From positions 1 through 34,936 of the IMG/VR virus record IMGVR_UViG_3300001683_000041: a DNA stretch of 34,936 bases. One strand, written 5' to 3'. The DNA is from a virus. Both the position numbers and the translations under genes were made by a program. Positions 15,588 through 33,652 of the stretch are shown piece by piece (position 1 is the first letter of the stretch; each line of letters starts with the position of its first letter). The notes beneath the pieces are model-generated. The model worked only from the letters and a program-made list of their open reading frames with translations, did no database searches and had not been told where the DNA came from.

Positions 15588-18500
15588 ATGGCATTATTTT
15601 CATCAATTGGTGTATATGTCGCAGGAGCGGTCGGTGTAGCACTGGCTGCAGGTTCCATTGCGGCAGTCGTCGTTGGAGTGGTAGTAGCTATCGCGGTAAT
15701 CGCGGTAATATCAGCAGTCGTAATGGCGTTAATGGGTGGTGCTGGTTCTGCCCCGACAGACCAAGGGGTTAGACAGAGAGTCCCAACAGATCCATCTAAT
15801 AAGCTTCCAATAGTCTATGGTAACAGAAAAAGCGCTGGATCAATCACCATGGCAGACATCAGCCCGAACAATGAGTACATGTACTTCATAATCTCATTGG
15901 CAGAGGGTCCATGCGAAAGTATTGGTAAGGTCTACTATGATGATAAATTAGTTTTCTTCGAAGGACAAGGGGACTACGACGAAGATGACGTCCAAGGGAG
16001 TATCGACGGAAATATCGGTCTAACTGGAGTAACAGAACTTCGAAAACCTACTACGGTGGTTGGAGACAGGGGTTATGGGGAAAAGTCTAAAGACCTTCTC
16101 AAAAACATCAAATTCAGAGCTTACCCACAAGGTGGCAGATGTGTTGAGATGGAAGAGAAAAGTGTACGTTGGAGAAAAAATAAAAAAGACAGGACGATGC
16201 CTGATACCGCTTACGTCTATATCGAGCTAAGATATAGCGCGAAGAGGAGGGTACATGGGCTATCTAATCGAATCGGTTTCTACTTGGAAGGAAAGAAAAT
16301 CAGAACTTTCGGTGTAAATGGTACACTAAGCACGGAGCTTTCATACTCCCGTAACCCAGGGGAGATTCTCGTTGATTATCTCACCAACCCTATTTATGGG
16401 TGTAATCTCGCGGACAAAGAGTTAGATCTTAACTCCTTCTTCGATCACACGAGGTTCTGCGGAGAGATGGTGGGTAACCTAGCGACTGATGGGAGGGACG
16501 ACTTCTCACCTCGTTATGAGATCAACGGGGTTATTAATCCAAAACAGGATCTAGATAGAAATATCTCAGACATCTGTATGAACTCAGGGGCTTGGTTCAC
16601 GTATACTCTTGGGAGATTCGGAGTTATCTCTGACAAGTCTCAAAGAGTTCTTGCCAGCGACACCCGAGATATAGAGTCCGCGAAAGATGGGCTGATGGTA
16701 GGGAAAATATATATAATTCATGACACCGGCCAAAATGGCTCATTCTCTGACTTCGGAGCCAGCAACTCCCCGTCAATTGGAGAATCATTCGTTGCCACAA
16801 GAAGCTCCGTACCAGGAGACATCGCTTTCACTGGAGAAGCGGAAGAGGTTAAGAGGATATATACAGAAGAGGACATGTACGGAGAGATAGATGTATCTAG
16901 CGGAGGTTTCGATAGTATGATCAATAGGTTGACATTCGAGTTCCCATCTGATGATCAAGGGCAACAAGAGTACGATCAGCTTATCATTGACACCAGAGTC
17001 ACACCGGCACCTGGAGTAGGTAACCCATACTACATCGACCCTTCCTTGCCAGGATCTCTGGCTAATCTAGATGAACCTCTTTTAGAGAAAACGCTGAAGA
17101 TGCATCTGAGCAGGGGGAGTGTGCAAGCTGAGAGACTCGCAGCTATTACTCTCAACAACTCTCGCCAAACTATATCGGTTAGATTCACTGTTGATCTGAG
17201 TTCTCTCGATTTAAGAGCTGGAGAGCTGATAGCGCTACGCCATGCGACACCTGGTTGGGGATACAAGACAGAAAATTTTGATCCAATGAACTTGGAGCTG
17301 GATACCCCTAAGATATTTAGGGTTTCCGAAATACTGGAGGAGGCCAAAGGGGATAGCATCTCACTGCATGTGTCTGCTTCAGAATACTCTAGCCAGAACT
17401 ATCAAGACAGAACTATCCAGAAAAGAGATTTCGCCCCAAACACTGGGTTCAGAGATGCGACTGCTGCTCCAGATATCGGATCCACAGTTGTGCGAGGCAA
17501 GATTGCTGAGTACTCTTTTGAGCAGACAAGCCTTGATGACATAGACGTTACGATTAACTCTTCGTTAGGAATACCTCTCTCTCTAGTAGAGATTGGTAAG
17601 ACCTACCGCATATCCTCACTAGGCGATACTCTCCCAGAGACTTTTAACGTAATCGCTGGGACAACAGGGGTTAGCTATCCAGTCGGAAGTTTAATAACTA
17701 TCGCAGGGTTTGCTACTATTCAACACGACGTTACTCAAGTACTCGCTGGCAAGGTATACCAGATTGTTTCTTTAGGAGACACCACACAAGCTAACTGGAA
17801 TTTCCTAGCGGGGACTTCAGGTGCTAACTACGTAGTTAACAGCACAATCTCTGCCATATCTAATGGTGGAGCTGGACTTGGTAGTGGAGTTGTCAAGAGA
17901 GACGCAGGAACAGGAGAAGTTGCCCAGACAGAAACTTACTCCGTTAACATTCCTGCTGTACTCCCTGATGGAGCGAGAGACGAGATAGATTCTTCCCTTG
18001 GAGATGGTACCGACACAGGAGTGATCGTAGAAAAAGTAAACAGAGCTCTTGAGGAGTTCGATCTCTACACCGTTCTCCTGACGGCTCCACTCCCTGAAGG
18101 GGTGTTCAACAGTGGAGATCGGATTTCTCCTAACGCATCAGGTGAACCATACAACACACTAAGGGTTACACCTTTTACCCGAATAGGTCATGGGGCTATC
18201 CCAGCTTTTCGTCCTCGCTTGTTTTCCTTTGAGGAGTTGTCTGTGTTTGCTCCAGGGGATTCTGTATTCTTCTTCAGCAGAGAGAACATTTCTTACATCG
18301 ACCCTGAAGATGCTGTTCCAGAAGGTTTCAAGTCTGCAGCTAACGTAGCGTATGCTATGGCCTTAGCTGCTCAAGACAATAGAGATCTAATCGCTGCTGC
18401 GACTGTTGAAGGAACTTTGAGTGACACTATTTACGCAGCCTTCAGGACAGAAGCTGGTGATGCGGATTTCTCTGCTGCTGATATGATTTCTGGACAAGTA

Positions 18501-19910
18501 ATCACATCTTTTGATGACGCTTCTCTGTACGCAGAAGATGCTGGAGTCTCTGGCATCAAGAATGGTGTACCGAGCAGTGCTTTGTCTGTCCATTTCAAAG
18601 ATTCTGACCCTTTTCTTGAGAGAGTAGAGTTACGTTGGTTTCAGAGTTCAGATGTTAACGTAGAACTTGAGCCAGGAGAACCTAATTCCATTGCGGATCA
18701 GGTTATCATTGGTGGACCATTTAGAGGTATTAAGGGGAGTTTTCTGATCAAGAAAGCTGTTTGTACAGATAACAGTCCTTTCGAGATCTCAGGATTAGAA
18801 CCTCAAGCTGACTATCAGATCGACATACGAGGAATTAGTGCGATAGGAGCTAAAGGAGAGTGGATAAGACTTCCGACCGCACAGTCCAAGAGTTTGGCGA
18901 GTTTGTATACAGCTACTCTGACTAATAAGTCTTCTAATGTGCCTTCTAACGCCACAAGTGGCTCATTCTCCGTTGGTGGACAATTCCAAGTTTTCACAAA
19001 CGATGTGAGAGTTACTAATAACATCTTTTACAGTATCAATAAGGTGAACGGAGTTCCAGCATCAGATGCTACGATAGACTCTACTGGTGTTTATACGGTA
19101 ACAGGTATCTCCTCTTCAGGGAATGCACCTGGTATTGTTACTCTACAAGTAGCTATTTCTGATGGCGTGAATACCCTTGTCAGCGATGGTGATACCCTCT
19201 CTCGCGGAGGAAGATATATCATCACGGAGTTAGGAAACACCACACAAACTAGTTGGATCAACGCAGGTTTCCCTGCTGGGGTAACCCCTCAAATTGGTCT
19301 TCCTTTTACTGTCACTGGTAGTTCAGTTGGAACTGGCAAGGTATCTAAAGCCCTTGTTGAGATCACTCGAGATTTCTATCTAGAGAAGGTCATCGACAGC
19401 TCAGACTTTACCAAGGTTGATATTGTGCATGAGTTTGAAGAAAGTGCTGGTAGCGGGAGTTATGTACCCGCTCCTGCTTTCTTTAAGGACGGCAAAGAGT
19501 TCTCTGGAGAGGAGTTAATTCACACCTTGAATGAGATACAAGAGAGCCATCAGTACACTATCACTTCCGTCGGGTCTAGTCAGGGGGATTGGAATACTCT
19601 TGCTGGCACATCCGGTGTCACTTATCTCGTGGGAGATAAGTTCATCTCTGTCCAGGATGGAGATTCACTTGGTGGTGGTGGAATAGCCGTCACAACAGAA
19701 AGAAACTACAGGCTTAGGGCAGTAATACTGGTCGGAGCAACAGAAGATACCAGCTCAGGTAACTACACTTTCCAATGGTTTCGCAAGAAGCCAGGGGAAG
19801 CAGAGGGGCTTGTTGGGTCTGGAATCGGGATGCACACTCTTAACGTAAACTCAGAGGATATCTCATCGGACGGAGAGAATTCTTACAGAGTGTCCGTTTC
19901 AACCCTATAA
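15588..19910 (+). CDS. gpJ-like central tail tip protein
   Basis: This 1440-residue protein is probably the central tip/host-specificity protein. Residues 1-52 are strongly hydrophobic and Gly/Ala/Val-rich, like the end of lambda gpI, then PTDPSNKLPIVYGNRKSAGS begins the J-type hub (PIVYG motif). NNEYMYFIISLAEGPCE and KVYYDDKLVF follow, as in TipJ proteins. The middle includes insertion domains and fibronectin-like segments (SGLEPQADYQIDIRGISAIG). Five copies of a small module, Y-x-I-x-x-x-G-x-x-x-x-x-(W/F)-x-x-x-x-A-G, sit near residues 371, 669, 720, 1205 and 1320. Near 1111-1177 is a module shared with the next gene's product. No lambda gpK or stand-alone gpI gene is seen in the window. 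Confidence 0.83.
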   Translation: MALFSSIGVYVAGAVGVALAAGSIAAVVVGVVVAIAVIAVISAVVMALMGGAGSAPTDQGVRQRVPTDPSNKLPIVYGNRKSAGSITMADISPNNEYMYFIISLAEGPCESIGKVYYDDKLVFFEGQGDYDEDDVQGSIDGNIGLTGVTELRKPTTVVGDRGYGEKSKDLLKNIKFRAYPQGGRCVEMEEKSVRWRKNKKDRTMPDTAYVYIELRYSAKRRVHGLSNRIGFYLEGKKIRTFGVNGTLSTELSYSRNPGEILVDYLTNPIYGCNLADKELDLNSFFDHTRFCGEMVGNLATDGRDDFSPRYEINGVINPKQDLDRNISDICMNSGAWFTYTLGRFGVISDKSQRVLASDTRDIESAKDGLMVGKIYIIHDTGQNGSFSDFGASNSPSIGESFVATRSSVPGDIAFTGEAEEVKRIYTEEDMYGEIDVSSGGFDSMINRLTFEFPSDDQGQQEYDQLIIDTRVTPAPGVGNPYYIDPSLPGSLANLDEPLLEKTLKMHLSRGSVQAERLAAITLNNSRQTISVRFTVDLSSLDLRAGELIALRHATPGWGYKTENFDPMNLELDTPKIFRVSEILEEAKGDSISLHVSASEYSSQNYQDRTIQKRDFAPNTGFRDATAAPDIGSTVVRGKIAEYSFEQTSLDDIDVTINSSLGIPLSLVEIGKTYRISSLGDTLPETFNVIAGTTGVSYPVGSLITIAGFATIQHDVTQVLAGKVYQIVSLGDTTQANWNFLAGTSGANYVVNSTISAISNGGAGLGSGVVKRDAGTGEVAQTETYSVNIPAVLPDGARDEIDSSLGDGTDTGVIVEKVNRALEEFDLYTVLLTAPLPEGVFNSGDRISPNASGEPYNTLRVTPFTRIGHGAIPAFRPRLFSFEELSVFAPGDSVFFFSRENISYIDPEDAVPEGFKSAANVAYAMALAAQDNRDLIAAATVEGTLSDTIYAAFRTEAGDADFSAADMISGQVITSFDDASLYAEDAGVSGIKNGVPSSALSVHFKDSDPFLERVELRWFQSSDVNVELEPGEPNSIADQVIIGGPFRGIKGSFLIKKAVCTDNSPFEISGLEPQADYQIDIRGISAIGAKGEWIRLPTAQSKSLASLYTATLTNKSSNVPSNATSGSFSVGGQFQVFTNDVRVTNNIFYSINKVNGVPASDATIDSTGVYTVTGISSSGNAPGIVTLQVAISDGVNTLVSDGDTLSRGGRYIITELGNTTQTSWINAGFPAGVTPQIGLPFTVTGSSVGTGKVSKALVEITRDFYLEKVIDSSDFTKVDIVHEFEESAGSGSYVPAPAFFKDGKEFSGEELIHTLNEIQESHQYTITSVGSSQGDWNTLAGTSGVTYLVGDKFISVQDGDSLGGGGIAVTTERNYRLRAVILVGATEDTSSGNYTFQWFRKKPGEAEGLVGSGIGMHTLNVNSEDISSDGENSYRVSVSTL

Positions 19911-19975: not shown

Positions 19976-22900
19976 ATGGCTACTTTTTCAGCCAGTACTA
20001 GCGTAGGAGATGTAACGACGGGGAAGAGATTCAGATTATTGTCAGATAGTCAGTTCTTCTCTTATGACACTAACGGTTCGCCTAGCCCTTCGGGGCAGGT
20101 GATTACCTTTAGTGAACATGTGAGTAATCTCGGATTCAACAACCAAGTAATTTACTCCACAAGCCCAGCCGTGACGCTAGGTGGGACTGCGGGGGCAAGG
20201 ACATTAAGCTTAGCCTCCTTTGGAAGCAATGATAAGGTCGTCGTTACCGCATCAGCTACCGACGGAACTGCTACAACTCTTGATGATCTCGTTGATCAGG
20301 TGACTATCCACAGATTGAGAGCAGGAGACAGTGCTTACCATGTGTTTCAATCAAATGAGGCGCACACCGTTGTCGCTGATTCAGAAGGAACAGTTAACCT
20401 TTTCTCAGGATCTGGGACTGATATCTCAGTTTTCTATGGATCAGAAAGAATAAATTTACAAGCAGTACACAATGTGGGTCTCTCTGCAGATGAGTTCCGG
20501 ATAAGACTGGTCAAACAGTCCGGTACTCTGACTCTGAACGATTCCAATGATTTGATCACTCCTTCTTATGGAGATTTCGGAGCTATCTTACTAGACCACA
20601 CGATCAATGATATTGCCGCTCTTACAGAGGACAACGGCACGAGAACCTTCGAAGTAGAAGTGTCTGGACCAATAGGGACAACTTCTCAGAAGTTTGAGAT
20701 AGTCCAGTCCTTCTCTAAATCTAAGAAGGGGAAAGACCCATTCGCTGGGTTCTTGACTAATGAAGTCGAGACAGTCGCAGCTACTTCTACAGGTGACGCG
20801 GGTTCTTTCTCTGTAGGAGGAGAGTTCGTCGTGTTCCAAGGGACTGAGGATATTACCTCTTCAGGAGGTGTAGTTTTCTCAGTGGAATCCTCTACAGGTG
20901 TCGTTGGAGCGACTATCGGCACGAACGGTGTTTATTCAGTCACAGGGTTCTCTAGCACTACTACCGAAGCAGGAGGTTCTGTATCTTTCAAAGCTACTAT
21001 CGGATCTGTCTCGATTAGTAAGATCTTCAGCATCAGTAAGTCGATAGCTGGAATAAATGGATCCCGCTTATTGAAGCTGACAACTAGTCGTCATTCCTTT
21101 GAGTTCGAGGACAGTAATCCTACAACCACGGCCACTGGTGTAGCGAGCTTAAGCGTGGAGTTGCTCAACTTCCAAGACAACTCCTCCATAACAAGTTGGA
21201 CGGCTACGGCTTTCACGGCAGCTGGAGTTGCTACAGACATAACTCTTTTAACTTCTAAGTTCGACTCAATATTTCCACAGAGCTTATCAGCGACTTTGAA
21301 AGCTTTCGCTTTTGAGACTAACGCTCAGGAGATAACAAGGGTGTCTGTCACCGCGACCAAGACAGTCTCGTCAGAGACCCTGCCAGGAGAGACCGATACC
21401 TTGTCCGATACTATCACTTTTTTCAAGGTGAGAGAAGGTGATAAAGTCAACGTAACGAAGTCAGGTAACACTCTTACTCTTTCTTCCTCTAACGGAGTAA
21501 CCCAATCTATCCTAGACGGAGCTACTTGGCACACTGGAGCAGGAGCTCCTCCCAATTCACTTGGTGAAAACGGAGATTACTACTTACGAACCAGCGATGA
21601 GTCTGTGTACCTCAAAAATGAGGGAAGCTGGGGAGTACTGATTAACACACTGAGAGGGGGCAATGGGCTAAACGCTGATGTCTTAAACTTCGTATTTCAA
21701 GATGCTGTTTCTAAGCCTTCTGTTCCAGCTGTCTCAGTAGGTGTACCATCTGGTTGGGTTGATTCAGTTCCTGCGATAGTTACTAACACTTTATGGTCTA
21801 CTTTAGGGAGACAAACCTCTGGAACAGGAAACTTCTCTTGGGGTCAAATAGCTCAAGTGACCGGAGATGACGGAGTCCCTGGTGCGGATGGAGCAATAGC
21901 TCGTGGTCCAGGGATTGACGCTGTGCCCGCGTATAGTAACGCAGATTATAACACAATCACTTATGATGAATCAGAAGGTGCTCTTGTCTTACAAAGTGAC
22001 ACTGATTTCTCCATCGGGATGGCGTATCCCGCATTTAATGTAGAATCAGGGAACACTGTAGAGTTCTCTGTGACTTACAAGGCATCCGCAGCTGCTGGAA
22101 CTGGATTCTATGTACGGGTGTATGAATATGACAGTGATTTGCCATCTGGGAAGGTGGCAGTGTCTAACTCAGCGAGTAACCCAGTTGTCCAAGAGGACAC
22201 TCGTACTGGACCTATCTCTCCTCTTGTTGAGAACCAAGCGATAACCACTTCATACCAGACCAAGGCTTTTACTTACACACCTACAAGTACCGCTAGATGG
22301 GCTAGTATCGTGATATTGAACTGGACAGGCATAGGGAATAACTCTCTGTTCATCAAACCAGTCAATACATCAATTAGGGGATACGACGGTGTTAACGGAG
22401 ACCTTCTGAACTTTATATTCAGGGAGTCAGTCACAGAGCCTGCTAGACCACTAGACTCCGCAGGGATACCAACAGGTTGGTCAGACTCCTCCCCTCCACC
22501 ATCTACATTGTCGTACACCTTGTGGACTTGTTTAGGAACTAAGATCGGCTCCACAGGGGACTACTCTTGGGGAGAAGTTATACAGCTCACAGGACAAGAC
22601 GGTCAACCAGGCCAACCAGGCCAACCAGGTGATCGCGGTGCTGGACGATACTCGAAAGAGATCTCCGTCAGCTATGCTCCAGAGATAGGAAGTGATGCTT
22701 TTAACCAACATGCGACCCAGCTAGTTGTCGATGTAACCGGCAGTAACCCTATCGCAGGGGATACGGTAACCATCGCCTATAACGACTCGTCAGCCCCCTT
22801 CACCATCCTGGTAGGGTCATTCGCTGGGAGTGTTACAGCAATCACCGTCTCTTCTACAGCAGGGTTCGCTGAGAAGGGAAGACTGACTATCGGGTCAAAC

Positions 22901-24142
22901 ACAGGGTTTAACTATACAAGCCGTTCCTCCTCTCAGTTCTTTGGTCCAACCCAAACCTTGGAGAATACTATCACCAGCGGATCAGTCGTTACTAGTAACT
23001 CTAAAACCATAACCCGTAATGCAATACATGATGGTACAGGTCTAGCTTCCAATGATTGGCAAGCCTTCGCACTATCCTTAGATGGGTCTCTGTTAGTCAA
23101 TGGAACCGTCGTTTCTGACGCTATCGTTGCTGGAGCTATCTCTTCTGAGAAGCTTTCGGCAACTGCCTTATTCGGCAAGTATGCTAGGTTCTCTTCGGAA
23201 GAGGGAGTGGTGTTGGACTCATATGCCCATTTAACTGCAATTGTCGTGGCAGATGGAGCCTCGGGTGTGGGTGCACAAGTCGGGCTTTATGGACAGGGTT
23301 CTCTACATGGCGTAGTGGGTGAGGCCGAGACTGGGGGGTCATGGAGCTGTGTCGGCTGGGGACAAACCAACGACACTGTTGGTGTACTGGGTACAAGTAC
23401 TAGTAAATATGCGGTACAGGCGGTAAACTACTCAGCCGGTATTGAAGCAATCGTAGGTCTTAACCAAGGTGGTGGGACAGGTGTGAGAGGTGCATCCCAG
23501 AACCATGCCGTTAACGGACAGACTTCTCATCCGGCTGGCATGTGGGGTTTTGCCACGAATCAGAAGGTGTATGCTGAACTAGGTTATAGCCCATTCACTG
23601 GTTCTCATCTCTGCTTCGGAGACGCTACGTTGGCGGTGGGTGATATTGTGAGTACCTCTTTTTCACAGGTCGCTTCGATAGATAACGCATTTATTAGTGT
23701 GGAGCGGTGTACGACAGCTAAAGATAAGAAAGCGATTGGCGTAGTCTCTAGCGTTTCTGCGGTTGCCCTGACCTCATTGGCAGTTGATTTCTGTGAGATT
23801 ACTTATGTTGATGAAGGCGAGGTAGAGATAGATATATTGAGTAAGGGTACTAAACCAAAGCTAACTGAGAAACGTGAGATAAAAGAAGAGTACCTAGTAC
23901 TGATCGGCTCGGACTCCCTTATTGAAATTAATTCACTCGGGGAAGGTGGTATCAGCGTGTGCGGAGAAGGTGGAGATCTCGAAGCAGGGGATTACATCTG
24001 TTCTTCTTCAATACCAGGAAAAGGTATGAAACAAGAAGATGACTTGATGCGCAACTACACCATAGCTAAGTGTCTTTCTGACATAGTCTTTACCAGTCCG
24101 GAAGAAGTTCGAATGGTTCCGGTCACTTACCACTGTGGGTGA
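19976..24142 (+). CDS. Large tail fibre protein
   Basis: A 1388-residue fibre following the tip protein. Residues about 260-328 are a beta module also found in the J-like protein (GSFSVGGEFVVF type). Residues about 565-635 and 805-875 are two copies of a unit with P-x-G-W-x-D-S, LW(S/T)-x-LG and SWG, each ending in collagen-like Gly-x-y (GDDGVPGADG; GQDGQPGQPGQPGDRG). Residues about 1085-1240 look like beta-helical shaft (GVVGEAETGGSWSCVGWGQT). The end holds GDYICSSSIPGKGMKQEDDL, RNYTIAKCLSD and a final VPVTYHCG, a C-terminus I recall from fibre or IMC-type (Peptidase_G2-like) domains of aquatic phages. The stop is TGA followed at once by TAA in frame. Confidence 0.82.
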   Translation: MATFSASTSVGDVTTGKRFRLLSDSQFFSYDTNGSPSPSGQVITFSEHVSNLGFNNQVIYSTSPAVTLGGTAGARTLSLASFGSNDKVVVTASATDGTATTLDDLVDQVTIHRLRAGDSAYHVFQSNEAHTVVADSEGTVNLFSGSGTDISVFYGSERINLQAVHNVGLSADEFRIRLVKQSGTLTLNDSNDLITPSYGDFGAILLDHTINDIAALTEDNGTRTFEVEVSGPIGTTSQKFEIVQSFSKSKKGKDPFAGFLTNEVETVAATSTGDAGSFSVGGEFVVFQGTEDITSSGGVVFSVESSTGVVGATIGTNGVYSVTGFSSTTTEAGGSVSFKATIGSVSISKIFSISKSIAGINGSRLLKLTTSRHSFEFEDSNPTTTATGVASLSVELLNFQDNSSITSWTATAFTAAGVATDITLLTSKFDSIFPQSLSATLKAFAFETNAQEITRVSVTATKTVSSETLPGETDTLSDTITFFKVREGDKVNVTKSGNTLTLSSSNGVTQSILDGATWHTGAGAPPNSLGENGDYYLRTSDESVYLKNEGSWGVLINTLRGGNGLNADVLNFVFQDAVSKPSVPAVSVGVPSGWVDSVPAIVTNTLWSTLGRQTSGTGNFSWGQIAQVTGDDGVPGADGAIARGPGIDAVPAYSNADYNTITYDESEGALVLQSDTDFSIGMAYPAFNVESGNTVEFSVTYKASAAAGTGFYVRVYEYDSDLPSGKVAVSNSASNPVVQEDTRTGPISPLVENQAITTSYQTKAFTYTPTSTARWASIVILNWTGIGNNSLFIKPVNTSIRGYDGVNGDLLNFIFRESVTEPARPLDSAGIPTGWSDSSPPPSTLSYTLWTCLGTKIGSTGDYSWGEVIQLTGQDGQPGQPGQPGDRGAGRYSKEISVSYAPEIGSDAFNQHATQLVVDVTGSNPIAGDTVTIAYNDSSAPFTILVGSFAGSVTAITVSSTAGFAEKGRLTIGSNTGFNYTSRSSSQFFGPTQTLENTITSGSVVTSNSKTITRNAIHDGTGLASNDWQAFALSLDGSLLVNGTVVSDAIVAGAISSEKLSATALFGKYARFSSEEGVVLDSYAHLTAIVVADGASGVGAQVGLYGQGSLHGVVGEAETGGSWSCVGWGQTNDTVGVLGTSTSKYAVQAVNYSAGIEAIVGLNQGGGTGVRGASQNHAVNGQTSHPAGMWGFATNQKVYAELGYSPFTGSHLCFGDATLAVGDIVSTSFSQVASIDNAFISVERCTTAKDKKAIGVVSSVSAVALTSLAVDFCEITYVDEGEVEIDILSKGTKPKLTEKREIKEEYLVLIGSDSLIEINSLGEGGISVCGEGGDLEAGDYICSSSIPGKGMKQEDDLMRNYTIAKCLSDIVFTSPEEVRMVPVTYHCG

Positions 24143-24157
24143 TAAATATCTAACCAA

Positions 24158-24568
24158 ATGAGAGAGAAAGAGAGTAACACTAAGTCTACAGATAGCGCGA
24201 CCAATGGAAGGGAAGATATCTTCTGTGGCGATTTACACGCTTCAGGGGATATAACCATAGTCTCTGATAAGAAATTCAAGGATGATATAAGAGTGATACC
24301 CGATGCTATGAATAAGATCGTCGAGTTGAGAGGAGTAACTTTCACTCGGGCTGATCAGTGTACAGATAAGAGATTCACGGGGGTTATCGCGCAGGAAGTT
24401 CAAGAGGTTCTCCCTGAAGCGGTGAATGTCCACAGAGATCATCTGTCAGTGTCCTACGGGACTATGGTAGGCTTATTGATAGAGGGTATGAAAGAACAGC
24501 AAGAAACCATAGAGGAGCTATCTAAAGAGGTAGCGGATCTAAGGGCACGTATGGAGAGGAGGTTGTAG
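24158..24568 (+). CDS. Stand-alone Peptidase_S74-type intramolecular chaperone
   Basis: A 136-residue protein matching the C-terminal chaperone domain that trimerises and then cuts itself off many fibres and spikes. Residues 31-45 (DITIVSDKKFKDDIR) hold the conserved cleavage-site Ser36 with Asp37 and Lys41; residues 72-81 (RFTGVIAQEV) are the G-x-I-A-Q-E-V hallmark; SVSYGTMVGLLIEGMKEQQ leads into a coiled coil (to residue 134). It is in the same frame as the large fibre but separated by TGA-TAA and three sense codons, and has its own ATG with no Shine-Dalgarno sequence. It may be made by reinitiation and act in trans, or be a domain cut from the fibre by mutation. Confidence 0.8.
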   Translation: MREKESNTKSTDSATNGREDIFCGDLHASGDITIVSDKKFKDDIRVIPDAMNKIVELRGVTFTRADQCTDKRFTGVIAQEVQEVLPEAVNVHRDHLSVSYGTMVGLLIEGMKEQQETIEELSKEVADLRARMERRL

Positions 24569-24616
24569 GGATGAAATCCTCATACCCTCCCCGTTATCTA
24601 AAGAACAAATTTTCAT

Positions 24617-24654
24617 CCTGTAGTGAGCCTGAGGAGGGCTACTACGGGTATTTT
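24617..24654 (+). terminator. Probable intrinsic terminator after S74 gene
   Basis: CCTGTAGTGAGCC (24617-24629) pairs with GGGCTACTACGGG (24636-24648) with one bulged G and one G-U pair, then TATTTT follows. It lies 48 bases after the S74-type gene and 40 bases before the next start, so it could separate the fibre unit from the genes after it. Confidence 0.6.
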
Positions 24655-24693
24655 CGAGAGTTAGATCAGGCATGATCCAAATTGGAGAACAAT

Positions 24694-25230
24694 ATGGCAG
24701 CAACAAACTTTACGATCAGGAAGGGAGAAACTTGGTCGAAGGTATTAAATTTAGAAGATTCTAATTGTGTACCCACTCTTCTCGCTGATCTCGGCAGCAA
24801 CCCTTATATGTATTTTGCAGGAATGGCAACGAAGTCCGGAGAGACTTCTGTACCAATCCATTTCAAATACGGAGAGGTGGAGACTAAGACATCCGGCAGG
24901 GGTAGTGGGAAAAAGACGACCACAGGGATATTCGAAGTAATATTATACATTCCAGCGGATGAAGTAGGGTCTTGTAGTATAGTAGGAAATAACACACGGA
25001 CTGAATGTAACTCCGCAGGGGGAACGTGGACAGTAGATGTTCCTGCTAGTCTATTAACGACTACTAATATGGCAGAAGGCTCATGGAGCTATGAGGTGAG
25101 GAAAGGATCAGCATTGGATGTATCCGGTGCAGAATCCTCTGAAACTCTGCTCTACGGTTCTATATCTGTAGAAGCTAGTCCTATAGATCTTTCAGCTGGA
25201 AGTAGTTTTACTTTCTCAACACCGAGATAG
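24694..25230 (+). CDS. Small virion / fibre-associated protein with Cys motif
   Basis: A 178-residue protein beginning MAATNFTIRKGETWSKVLNL, a start seen in phage baseplate/fibre-network proteins that open with a 'G-E/D-T-W' beta strand. I chose ATG 24694 because GGAG lies 6 bases before it; an in-frame TTG at 24682 is less likely. The middle contains GSCSIVGNNTRTECNSAGGT, a two-Cys insertion also present in the next gene. The rest is beta-rich (FEVILYIPADEV, EGSWSYEVRKGS). Function is probably structural, at the tail tip; no enzyme motif is seen. Confidence 0.6.
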   Translation: MAATNFTIRKGETWSKVLNLEDSNCVPTLLADLGSNPYMYFAGMATKSGETSVPIHFKYGEVETKTSGRGSGKKTTTGIFEVILYIPADEVGSCSIVGNNTRTECNSAGGTWTVDVPASLLTTTNMAEGSWSYEVRKGSALDVSGAESSETLLYGSISVEASPIDLSAGSSFTFSTPR

Positions 25231-28646: not shown

Positions 28647-28961
28647 ATGGAAAATTTTACAAACATACCTATTAGCAGTATAGGGACCAATCCCGTAACA
28701 ATATTCACAGCCACCACAGCTAGCATAGTTCTTAGTTGTAATGTGGCAAACACTTCTTCCTACATAACTCCAGTAGACCTTGTCTTAAATAACGGTGTCT
28801 CTGATACTTACATTAGGAAAGCATTCAGAATAACCAATGGAGATTCTGAAGAATTAACGAAGGGAAACAAAATAGCTTTAAAGGCAGGAGATTCTATTGT
28901 AATTAAAAGTGGGATAGATAATTCTATAGATGTAGTACTAACAGTAGTGGAGGTAGGATAA
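28647..28961 (+). CDS. Small virion-associated protein, beta-rich
   Basis: A 104-residue protein with a beta-sandwich look: NPVTIFTATTASIVLSCNVA, then PVDLVLNNGVSDTYIRKAF, then GNKIALKAGDSIVIKSG and a final strand. This arrangement resembles small decoration/fibre-associated proteins in aquatic tailed phages in which 'L-x-x-G-D-x-I-x-V-x-S' precedes the last strand. The ATG follows GGAGA, and the stop overlaps the next ATG by one base (ATAATG), so the two are coupled. Function unknown; virion location inferred from context. Confidence 0.55.
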   Translation: MENFTNIPISSIGTNPVTIFTATTASIVLSCNVANTSSYITPVDLVLNNGVSDTYIRKAFRITNGDSEELTKGNKIALKAGDSIVIKSGIDNSIDVVLTVVEVG

Positions 28962-30866: not shown

Positions 30867-32225
30867 ATGTCAGATATACTATTACAAAATGCTATCAGTC
30901 AAGTAACTGAAGCAATTACTGATAAAATTAAATCACCACCATCTTTACCCTCACTAGATATGATAGATCTAAAAGCTACTATCATATCTGGGGTAGATGA
31001 TATTCTAGCATCACTGGCAACGAATACAAGTGGGTTTAAAGAAGATACACACGGATGTCGTATTTGTCTTTTATCATGCCAGTGCCAGATCGGTTCTTGT
31101 TATCATGCTGTTAGGGGGGCAGCCCAATCTCCATTAGGGAATCAGGATGATACTAATAGTAGCTGGTCACAACTCGGATTTACTACAGCAGATTCAGAAG
31201 ATTCACTGAAGAGTATTATCGACATTTGGTTTGAATCACCTTCAGCAATTCTATATAAACTTATGTATAATGAGTTTTCATCTGTTCAAAGGTCAGAGTT
31301 AAAGGCTGTGGTACGAAATGTATTAATAGAACATTTGGCAGAAAATGATATCAACCCTTCAGGTTTAAAAGCAACGTTAGAAGAATCCTTGATATCTACT
31401 GATATCTTAAAGGTTTGTGGTGCTAGTTGGAAAACTGGTGAAGGTAAAAGTCAACAATGGGTCGTTCCAGCGGGAGCATCTAGAGCAAAGTTTCAGGGAA
31501 CATCGGGCGCTTGTTGCTGTGGTGGAAACCAATTTGGTGCTAATGGGGCTTTTGCTCAAGTAATTATGGATGTAACTCCAGGGGAAACTTACACACTTTG
31601 TGCTGGTTGTTCTTGTTCAAGATACTGTTGCTCAAATAGCGAACCTGGTCGTGCTTGTATGTCAGGGGTTACTGGTCCAGGTATTTCTACTCTGAAGGCG
31701 GATGGGGGTTGCTGGAACAACTGCAACGCCATGCATTGTTTAAGAACCATAGTTGGTGTTGGTGGTACATGCTACAGGTTCCAAAACCCTTATTGTACAA
31801 GTAGTGGTCCTTGTTATTGCAACTATGGTGAGTATTGTTTTGGCGGTTCTTGCTCAACTTGTGGTGTTGTCCCAATTTACGCTGATTGTTCGACTGGTAG
31901 ATGTTTCTTAGCAACAATAGATAGTTCAAGAAACCCAGAAGATATAGGGGGTATGAGACCATTACATGGTGGTGGTTGTTTAGATACAAACAATTATGGA
32001 TGGCACTCAAGACCACCAGTATTAGATTCTGATGAATGTAAAATGTTTACTGCTGGATGTCAAATCCAAACCTTTACTTCAGGCTCTTGCTGTGGTGGTT
32101 GTCATGGAAAAGACTGGGCCACCCATCCTGGACACGGTGGTGCTGGTACACATGTTATGGGTGGTGCTAATAATCATATAGGTGACACTGGTCGTGGTGG
32201 TTTAGTAAAAGTTGAGTGGAAATAA
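30867..32225 (+). CDS. Cys-rich tail tip / receptor-binding-like protein, copy 1
   Basis: A 452-residue protein. The N-terminal 180 residues are helical with a conserved Cys cluster (CRICLLSCQCQIGSCYHAVR). From about residue 182 (LKVCGASWKTGEGKSQQWVV) a Gly/Cys-rich domain begins: GACCCGGNQFGANGAFAQV, YTLCAGCSCSRYCCSN, then many Cys and His to the C-terminal GRGGLVKVEWK. I recall such Cys-rich ends from structural proteins of aquatic phages. Multiple disulfides or metal sites would make a rigid tip. Its second half is duplicated in the next gene. An adhesion role is inferred from place and type. Confidence 0.68.
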   Translation: MSDILLQNAISQVTEAITDKIKSPPSLPSLDMIDLKATIISGVDDILASLATNTSGFKEDTHGCRICLLSCQCQIGSCYHAVRGAAQSPLGNQDDTNSSWSQLGFTTADSEDSLKSIIDIWFESPSAILYKLMYNEFSSVQRSELKAVVRNVLIEHLAENDINPSGLKATLEESLISTDILKVCGASWKTGEGKSQQWVVPAGASRAKFQGTSGACCCGGNQFGANGAFAQVIMDVTPGETYTLCAGCSCSRYCCSNSEPGRACMSGVTGPGISTLKADGGCWNNCNAMHCLRTIVGVGGTCYRFQNPYCTSSGPCYCNYGEYCFGGSCSTCGVVPIYADCSTGRCFLATIDSSRNPEDIGGMRPLHGGGCLDTNNYGWHSRPPVLDSDECKMFTAGCQIQTFTSGSCCGGCHGKDWATHPGHGGAGTHVMGGANNHIGDTGRGGLVKVEWK

Positions 32226-32226: not shown

Positions 32227-32256
32227 TTTTTAGGAGAACATAAAATGTCAGATATA
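32181..32256 (+). repeat. 76-bp direct repeat spanning stop and next start, copy 1
   Basis: A 76-bp stretch covers the end of a Cys-rich gene, the intergenic TTTTTTAGGAGAA ribosome site and the first codons (MSDI) of the next gene. It recurs at 33608-33683 with a single base difference. Recombination between the copies would remove or add exactly one gene cassette. Confidence 0.93.
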
Positions 32257-33652
32257 CTATTACAAAATGCGGTAAGGGAAATAGGAGAATCCTTACAGGG
32301 CAGCGAGTCAATGCCAGAAAACTTAAATCCTATAAATATAACAAAACTCAAAACAGCAATAATATCATCAGTAACAGCATTACTTGGAGGATACAATACT
32401 CTTACAGGTAATGCAATTGAGGCTGGATTTACGGAAAATTCAGTTAGTAACATCTGCACACTTTCTTGTAATCAACTAATGGCAAATTGCAATCATAATG
32501 TTAGGGGTAATGGTACTACCAATCCTTCACCAATTGATAATGACAGTAGTTGGTCGAGTGGAGATTTTTATACACCAAAGAGCACATTAGTATCTTTAGC
32601 TGCCGCATCTGAATATGAAATATCTAGTGCTGTAACACTACTGTTAAATCTCACTGGTATGGAGACGTATAAAAGACTATATGCAAATGTAATTACAGAA
32701 GATATCCCATCGATCAGGTTAACACTCGCATCATTATTACTAACAGAATTAAATCGACTTGATGTTGATTTAACAAAATTCATTGAGTTTTATCGCACAT
32801 CAGATTTAACAGAAGGAGCAGACGGAGGAAATTTTTTAAAGGTTTGTGGTGCTAGTTGGAAAACTGGTGAAGGTAAAAGTCAACAATGGGTCGTTCCAGC
32901 GGGAGCATCTAGAGCAAAGTTTCAGGGGAACAGGAAGTGCTTGTTGCTGTGGTGGAAACCAATTTGGTGCTAATGGGGCTTTTGCTCAAGTAATTATGGA
33001 TGTAAGTCCTGGCGAATCTTATACACTTTGTGCTGGTTGTTCTTGTTCAAGATACTGTTGCTCAAATTCTGGTGGCGGCTTTGCTTGTATGTCAGGGGTT
33101 ACTGGTCCAGGTATTTCTACTCTGAAGGCGGATGGGGGTTGCTGGAGCAACTGTGAAGCCATGCATTGTTTAAGAACCCTAAATGGTGCTGGTAGTACAT
33201 GCTACCTGTTCCAAAACCCTTATTGTACAACTTCAGGTGCTTGTTATTGTGGTTGTGGCGAGTATTGTTTTAACGGTTGCTCAACTTGTGGTGTTGTCCC
33301 AATTTACGCTGATTGTTCGACTGGTAGATGTTTCTTAGCAACAATAGATAGTTCAAGAAACCCAAATGATGCAGGGGGTATGAGACCATTGCATGGTGGT
33401 GGTTGTTTAGATACAAACAATTATGGATGGCACTCAAGACCACCAGTATTAGATTCTGATGAATGTCAATGGTTTAGTCCTGGATGTCAAATCCATACCT
33501 TTACTTCAGAAAATTGCACTGGTGGTTGTCTATATAAAGATCACACATACCATCCTGGACACGGTGGTGCATCTGCACATGTTATGGGTGGTAATAATTC
33601 TCATATGGGTGACACTGGTCGTGGTGGTTTAGTAAAAGTTGAGTGGAAATAA
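32245..33652 (+). pseudogene. Cys-rich tail tip protein, copy 2, with one-base frameshift
   Basis: A paralogue of the preceding gene, starting MSDILLQNAV. It reads in one frame to 32973, ending in a non-homologous NRKCLLLWWK tail, while the rest of the Cys-rich domain continues in the +1 frame to 33652. At 32925-32928 there are four G where copy 1 has three. With three G the protein would read QGTGSACCCGGNQFG and be 468 residues, close to copy 1 (452). The downstream frame keeps its coding sense to the end, with substitutions that respect the Cys pattern. So the break is recent, is a sequencing error, or is bypassed by +1 frameshifting at GGG-A. The N-terminal half has diverged much more than the C-terminal half. 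Confidence 0.85.

Follow-up and report, generated by a model that had tools for sequence, protein, structure and literature searches.

Can a Peptidase_S74 domain stand as a gene of its own behind a phage fibre, and on what would it then act? Known S74 domains trimerise via a C-terminal coil, hold the fibre end during β-helix formation and then cleave themselves off. The window analysed here is a whole IMG/VR record of 34,936 bases from a marine-type phage, with a siphophage-like tail module comprising a distal tail protein, a gpJ-like protein and several fibre genes; a 2665-aa frame looks like the tape measure, judging from its size and position. As a side observation, the Cys/Gly-rich adhesin-like gene 30867-32225 occurs twice: the stretch 32248-33652 repeats it, almost without differences in the 3' part. 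A one-base difference in a G-run near 32925 (four G vs three) disrupts the reading frame of this second copy and may be a sequencing error, slippage or phase variation. The features around the S74 gene are as follows.

19976-24142, + strand: upstream fibre, 1388 aa, with a conserved C-terminal domain of about 190 residues and the end YHCG
24140-24145, + strand: tandem in-frame stops TGA TAA at the boundary of fibre and S74 gene
24158-24568, + strand: stand-alone Peptidase_S74/intramolecular-chaperone gene, 136 aa (PF13884, PHROGs, AlphaFold2 with Foldseek)
24158-24226, + strand: residues 1-23, polar tail without homologue, predicted disordered (pLDDT, coding score)
24227-24262, + strand: residues 24-35, GDLHASGDITIV, the conserved strand ahead of the cleavage Ser in fibre-borne S74
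24263-24280, + strand: Ser36-Asp-x3-Lys41, Ser/Lys autoproteolysis dyad (alignment of 51 sequences)
24455-24565, + strand: residues 100-136, C-terminal helix, expected trimeric coiled coil (AlphaFold2 helix 100-135)
24571-24675, + strand: 34-codon frame (MKSSYPPRYLKNKF...), no homologue and no PHROG match, Shine-Dalgarno GGAGAGGAGG inside the S74 3' end
24694-25230, + strand: next gene, weak phrog_1084 match (E 7e-4); frame listed from 24682, ATG at 24694

The initial annotation had recognised an S74-type domain in the 136-residue frame from Ser36 in IVSDKKFKDD, the GVIAQEV motif and the C-terminal coiled coil, and the profile search bore this out. PF13884 matched residues 36-89 strongly (E 7.6e-14; 52.2 bits against a curated cut-off of 22 bits), covering profile positions 1-57 of 58. 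PHROG families representing the C-terminal ends of long tail fibres matched residues 18-135 (best E 8.8e-34), and among the 25 PHROG matches listed the match always lay at the far end of the longer profile. The segment GDLHASGDITIV accounts for 12 of the 35 residues preceding Ser36; upstream of Ser-13, the product showed no likeness to fibre bodies and no fibre-like repeats. No other frame of the window carried an S74 domain. The product of 24158-24568 is a bona fide Peptidase_S74, and it is not the in-cis C-terminal end of a fibre or spike, as it has its own frame after TGA TAA and 35 residues before the Ser.

The description of this domain as a separate gene, in frame with the 1388-residue fibre and with its own start codon, was likewise confirmed at the coordinate level: four codons past the TGA TAA pair, the ATG at 24158 opens 136 codons in the frame of the fibre, ending with TAG at 24566-24568. 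The frame scored as coding (+0.15 bits per codon vs -0.74 and -0.52 for the other two forward frames), as did its first 23 codons when taken alone (+0.22 vs -0.23 and -0.81). A chance open frame was ruled out by the PF13884 match together with the coding score.

Alignment with other S74 domains showed that all 11 invariant columns of a 51-sequence alignment were kept (S36, D37, K41, G59, G75, A78, Q79, P86, Y100, K112 and E113) and that 37 of the 46 strongly conserved columns agreed (80%). The same agreement in fibre-borne S74 domains was 67-83% for the twelve lowest rows, with a median of 88%; judged by these columns, the window product lies within the fibre-borne range. The AlphaFold2 monomer model had a pLDDT of 86 and was confident from residue 40 on, with residues 1-30 at 55-58 and a 36-residue C-terminal helix (residues 100-135) at 97-98. 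Foldseek returned the MyRF ICA (7dc3, TM 0.68) as the best match, followed by endoNF (3gw6) and GA-1 (3gud), and no further credible PDB match. The monomer model and these matches point to an IMC fold with a C-terminal trimerisation helix.

Two signs of changed constraint were found in the window S74. The strand before Ser36 is altered, either by an Ala to Ile change at -2 that was unseen in the 50 other sequences or by a loss of about four residues relative to the DLHVDGDVIAYS subtype. The window branch is also the longest in the S74 tree (1.98 vs a median of 0.69, in a poorly resolved tree), which could reflect relaxed constraint. The stalk Arg/Asp required for cleavage in endoNF and T5 is absent from the window protein, and because there is no stalk in cis, any chaperone action would have to be exerted in trans.

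Whether the fibre ends naturally at YHCG, as had been proposed, was addressed with an IMG/VR scan using the last 200 fibre residues as query, which yielded 56 loci. The fibre, whose last residues in the window are ...PVTYHCG, stopped at the same point in all 56 loci and in Colwellia phage 9A, usually as ...ACIYLCG or ...ACTYHCG, and a continuous fibre-S74 frame was found in none of these 57 relatives. Because the end is conserved without an attached S74 domain, it is natural, and a recent nonsense mutation splitting a fibre-S74 gene was ruled out. Of the two observations that the initial annotation had named as refuting it, relatives with an uninterrupted fibre-S74 frame and a missing S74 profile match, neither was made. 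As for the stop pair, tandem stops follow the fibre in many relatives too; the sequence there is commonly TAA TAA or TAA CAA. The fibre C-terminal domain itself (23540-24139, ...NVCGENGDIEIGDLIVTSSIPGKGMKQ...CG) is very conserved and common to gpJ-type and T4-like relatives; it gave no match in Pfam or PDB profile searches, and its model was weak (pLDDT 67) with no significant PDB match.

The fibre C-end forms part of a gpJ-type protein in L009, L027, L040, L041, L045 and L048, L009 being assigned via its annotation "central tail fiber J" and the other five via one frame matching both window proteins. In the window and in L061, the gpJ-like part and the fibre are separate genes. The counterparts of 15588-19910 and 19976-24142 are one gpJ-type protein in L027, L040, L041, L045 and L048, and probably in Colwellia phage 9A (L009), and the two window genes may be described as a split (or unfused) central fibre; a search with the window gpJ-like protein returned no relatives. 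Since its C-end is fused to a gpJ-like N-terminal part in several relatives, the window fibre probably makes up the distal portion of a central tail fibre of the gpJ type, and the client adjoining the S74 gene is therefore probably a central fibre.

The position behind the fibre is variable among relatives. A phrog_1084-type gene begins 4-7 nt past the fibre stop in 22 of them, often as TAATAAATG without a Shine-Dalgarno sequence of its own, and homologues of this gene have a further match to phrog_3304, "L-shaped tail fiber protein assembly". In T4-like relatives, for example at L011:6571-6897, this gene begins, as TAATAAATG, at the tandem stop that closes the fibre, again with no Shine-Dalgarno of its own. 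In L023, L042, L055 (L055:2196-2534) and L059, a protein of 113-116 aa lies between the fibre and the phrog_1084 gene, with a membrane segment and a coiled coil as judged by eye. The window gene 24694-25230 is the syntenic counterpart of the gene directly after the fibre in relatives. The order in L055 is fibre, coil protein, phrog_1084, further small or fibre genes, and close homologues of the genes at 28647, 28961 and 29188; the window has the same order, the S74 gene occupying the variable slot. Because the two orders match, the S74 gene does not lie at an assembly seam. The 34-codon frame at 24571-24675 may be translated. In two other records, L046:7026-8060 and L056:7038-8066, proteins of 343-345 aa with a C-terminal S74 domain after a glycine-rich stretch are encoded shortly past a YHCG fibre. 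A shufflon or a duplicated fibre end was also considered and ruled out, only chance repeats of 14-15 bases being present around the S74 gene.

Expression of the S74 gene would have to proceed without a regular ribosome-binding site. The statement of the initial annotation that no Shine-Dalgarno sequence precedes the ATG at 24158 holds at normal spacing, but it needs to be qualified: a single anti-SD-like stretch, GGGTGA, spans the fibre stop and precedes the ATG by 15 nt. Its duplex energy (-5.8) does not stand out from the background of this AT-rich genome, in which random places often reach such a value. Nearly all of the remaining tail-module genes have a Shine-Dalgarno sequence. Genes without one directly after the fibre are, however, the rule in T4-like relatives (TAATAAATG), which fits coupled translation. 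Because the following gene in relatives also lacks the sequence and starts at the stop, a restart after the fibre would be the likeliest route for S74.

The rarity of this arrangement was assessed with 226 distinct S74 domains from viral and bacterial collections, 122 of them in frames with a closed 5' side; these are samples of best matches and no census. The 122 frames had a median length of 585 aa and a median of 481 residues ahead of the catalytic Ser. The window frame has 35 residues before the Ser, compared with 55 (L176) and 79 (L007) for the next smallest among these frames. The only other frame starting so close to the Ser, L239 (63 aa), is cut inside the S74 domain, and L007, a mini-fibre of 180 aa in which 79 residues precede the Ser, is otherwise the shortest credible S74 protein. 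All 17 S74 matches in 229 genomes of one bacterial class were in frames of at least 207 aa. Bacterial genomes gave no match when searched with a single S74 sequence, and with the profile the S74 domains found there were all part of longer proteins, apart from a frame truncated inside the domain. Among the records with a YHCG fibre, 6 of 44 carry S74 elsewhere, in frames of 343-1332 aa. A stand-alone S74 gene at this place was found in no relative and occurs once, in one genome. Unannotated S74 stretches in KVP40 and VH7D were considered as further cases and ruled out, as they are the ends of continuous frames (1088 and 579 aa). A literature search, with most subscription journals outside it, returned no description of a stand-alone S74 gene.

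For this genuine S74 module with its own gene after the fibre, we consider it about an even call that it is translated by reinitiation and acts in trans as a fibre chaperone or cap. The main rival of this trans-chaperone reading is that the gene is a relic: when fibre tips were exchanged, the S74 end of a fibre now lost would have stayed in place after the new fibre gene, functionless or barely translated, and intact because the event was fairly recent. The missing Shine-Dalgarno, the N-tail without homologues, the long branch, the occurrence in one genome only, the altered or shorter strand immediately ahead of the cleavage Ser and the exchange-prone region, in which the genes downstream are fibre genes, would all fit such a relic. 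Yet no catalytic or core residue has been lost and the coil is complete, the start of the open frame coincides with the edge of the conserved segment, the N-tail scores as coding and the S74 3' end contains a strong Shine-Dalgarno for the small frame that follows; moreover, a fibre remnant should retain some fibre body, and none is present. On balance, we regard the relic as rather unlikely.

A structural or accessory role of its own for the product, with the N-tail binding a virion protein and S74 trimerising and then being cleaved off, as in the shortest S74-bearing proteins, appears improbable: the Ser/Lys dyad is kept and L007 offers a precedent as a mini-fibre, but only 23 non-S74 residues remain here, predicted to be disordered and lacking fibre-like repeats. 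A single fibre-S74 chain made by stop readthrough, frameshifting or bypassing, with S74 acting in cis, is very unlikely. The two frames are in register and six codons apart, but two tandem stops separate them, in 57 relatives without S74 the fibre truly ends at YHCG, and no conserved recoding element was seen. We consider least probable of all a contig that is chimeric or misassembled at the S74 gene; a single occurrence in a metagenomic record would be compatible with it, but homologues of both flanks stand in the same order in L055, and the composition and codon use of the S74 gene match those of its neighbours.

Under the trans-chaperone reading, the S74 module would once have ended a T4-like (gp37-type) fibre, from which it was cut off; it would then have become a gene of its own, placed in the variable slot that has the central tail fibre on one side and the downstream partner gene on the other. 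Ribosomes finishing the fibre would probably restart at the ATG at 24158. The product would trimerise via its C-terminal coiled coil and act in trans on the adjoining fibre end or on another fibre of the phage, either helping it to fold or capping it transiently. The separation of S74 from the fibre looks real and old. Counted against this reading were the single occurrence, the absence of a proper Shine-Dalgarno, the longest S74 branch, the missing stalk residues for cleavage and the fact that relatives of the fibre manage without S74. A wider proposal is put forward tentatively, at slightly less than even probability: an S74 domain that retains its protease dyad would have turned into a free chaperone gene acting in trans, perhaps for several fibres of the same phage, and would directly link self-cleaving fibre ends with separately encoded chaperones in evolution. 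A stand-alone bona fide S74 behind a fibre would represent a missing intermediate towards separately encoded fibre chaperones. It would also give a simple system for asking whether S74 and its client have to be covalently joined, and a small trimerising helper protein for phage fibre production.

The window protein shares with the S74/IMC/CIMCD domains of endosialidase, T5 pb1, GA-1 gp12 and S16 and KVP40-type gp37 the family, the Ser/Lys dyad, the fold and the C-terminal coiled coil. Those domains, however, are the last ~100-130 residues of their fibres and are self-cleaved, whereas the window S74 is its own gene with no fibre body ahead. The dyad corresponds to S911/K916 in endoNF and S587/K592 in MyRF (PMC8326128). 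Stalk residues are needed for cleavage in endoNF and T5, whereas trimerisation suffices in MyRF (PMC8326128, PMC4690869). The MyRF ICA, a eukaryotic S74 and the best Foldseek match, is cleaved in a way that depends on trimerisation and hardly on the stalk; it is part of a membrane-bound transcription factor and no free chaperone.

With a gene of its own immediately behind a fibre gene (24158-24568 after 19976-24142), the window S74 is arranged like an intermolecular chaperone, although it has no sequence homology to Tfa, gp38 or DUF4376, its Pfam and PHROG matches being S74 fibre ends. Tfa-type chaperones (phage Mu Tfa, Pam3 gp25) and T4 gp38 also act in trans and lie downstream of the fibre, and Pam3 gp25, a trans-acting, trimeric, IMC-shaped chaperone encoded right after its fibre (PMC9608196), has an IMC-like helical bundle; these proteins differ in their N-terminal fibre-binding domain and have no S74 sequence match. 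Parallels in arrangement are Alteromonas V22 gp27 and A5 gp9, trans-acting, trimeric, IMC-shaped chaperones encoded right after the fibre, of which gp27 is essential for the fibre and gp9 may be a transient cap (PMC7289586, PMC10579305). They belong to an unrelated family of similar shape and demonstrate for it that a chaperone can work in trans. The likeness to the window lies in the separate gene directly after the fibre, the trimeric IMC-like shape predicted there and the proposed role as folding helper or transient cap. For V22 gp27, the authors report no homology to any known phage chaperone, only DUF4376. The V22 and A5 proteins contact the fibre through three extra β-strands, whereas the window protein is an S74 by sequence and carries the cleavage dyad. 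A resemblance between S74 fibre ends and some of the fibre chaperones encoded as separate genes has been proposed from structure alone (PMC10579305).
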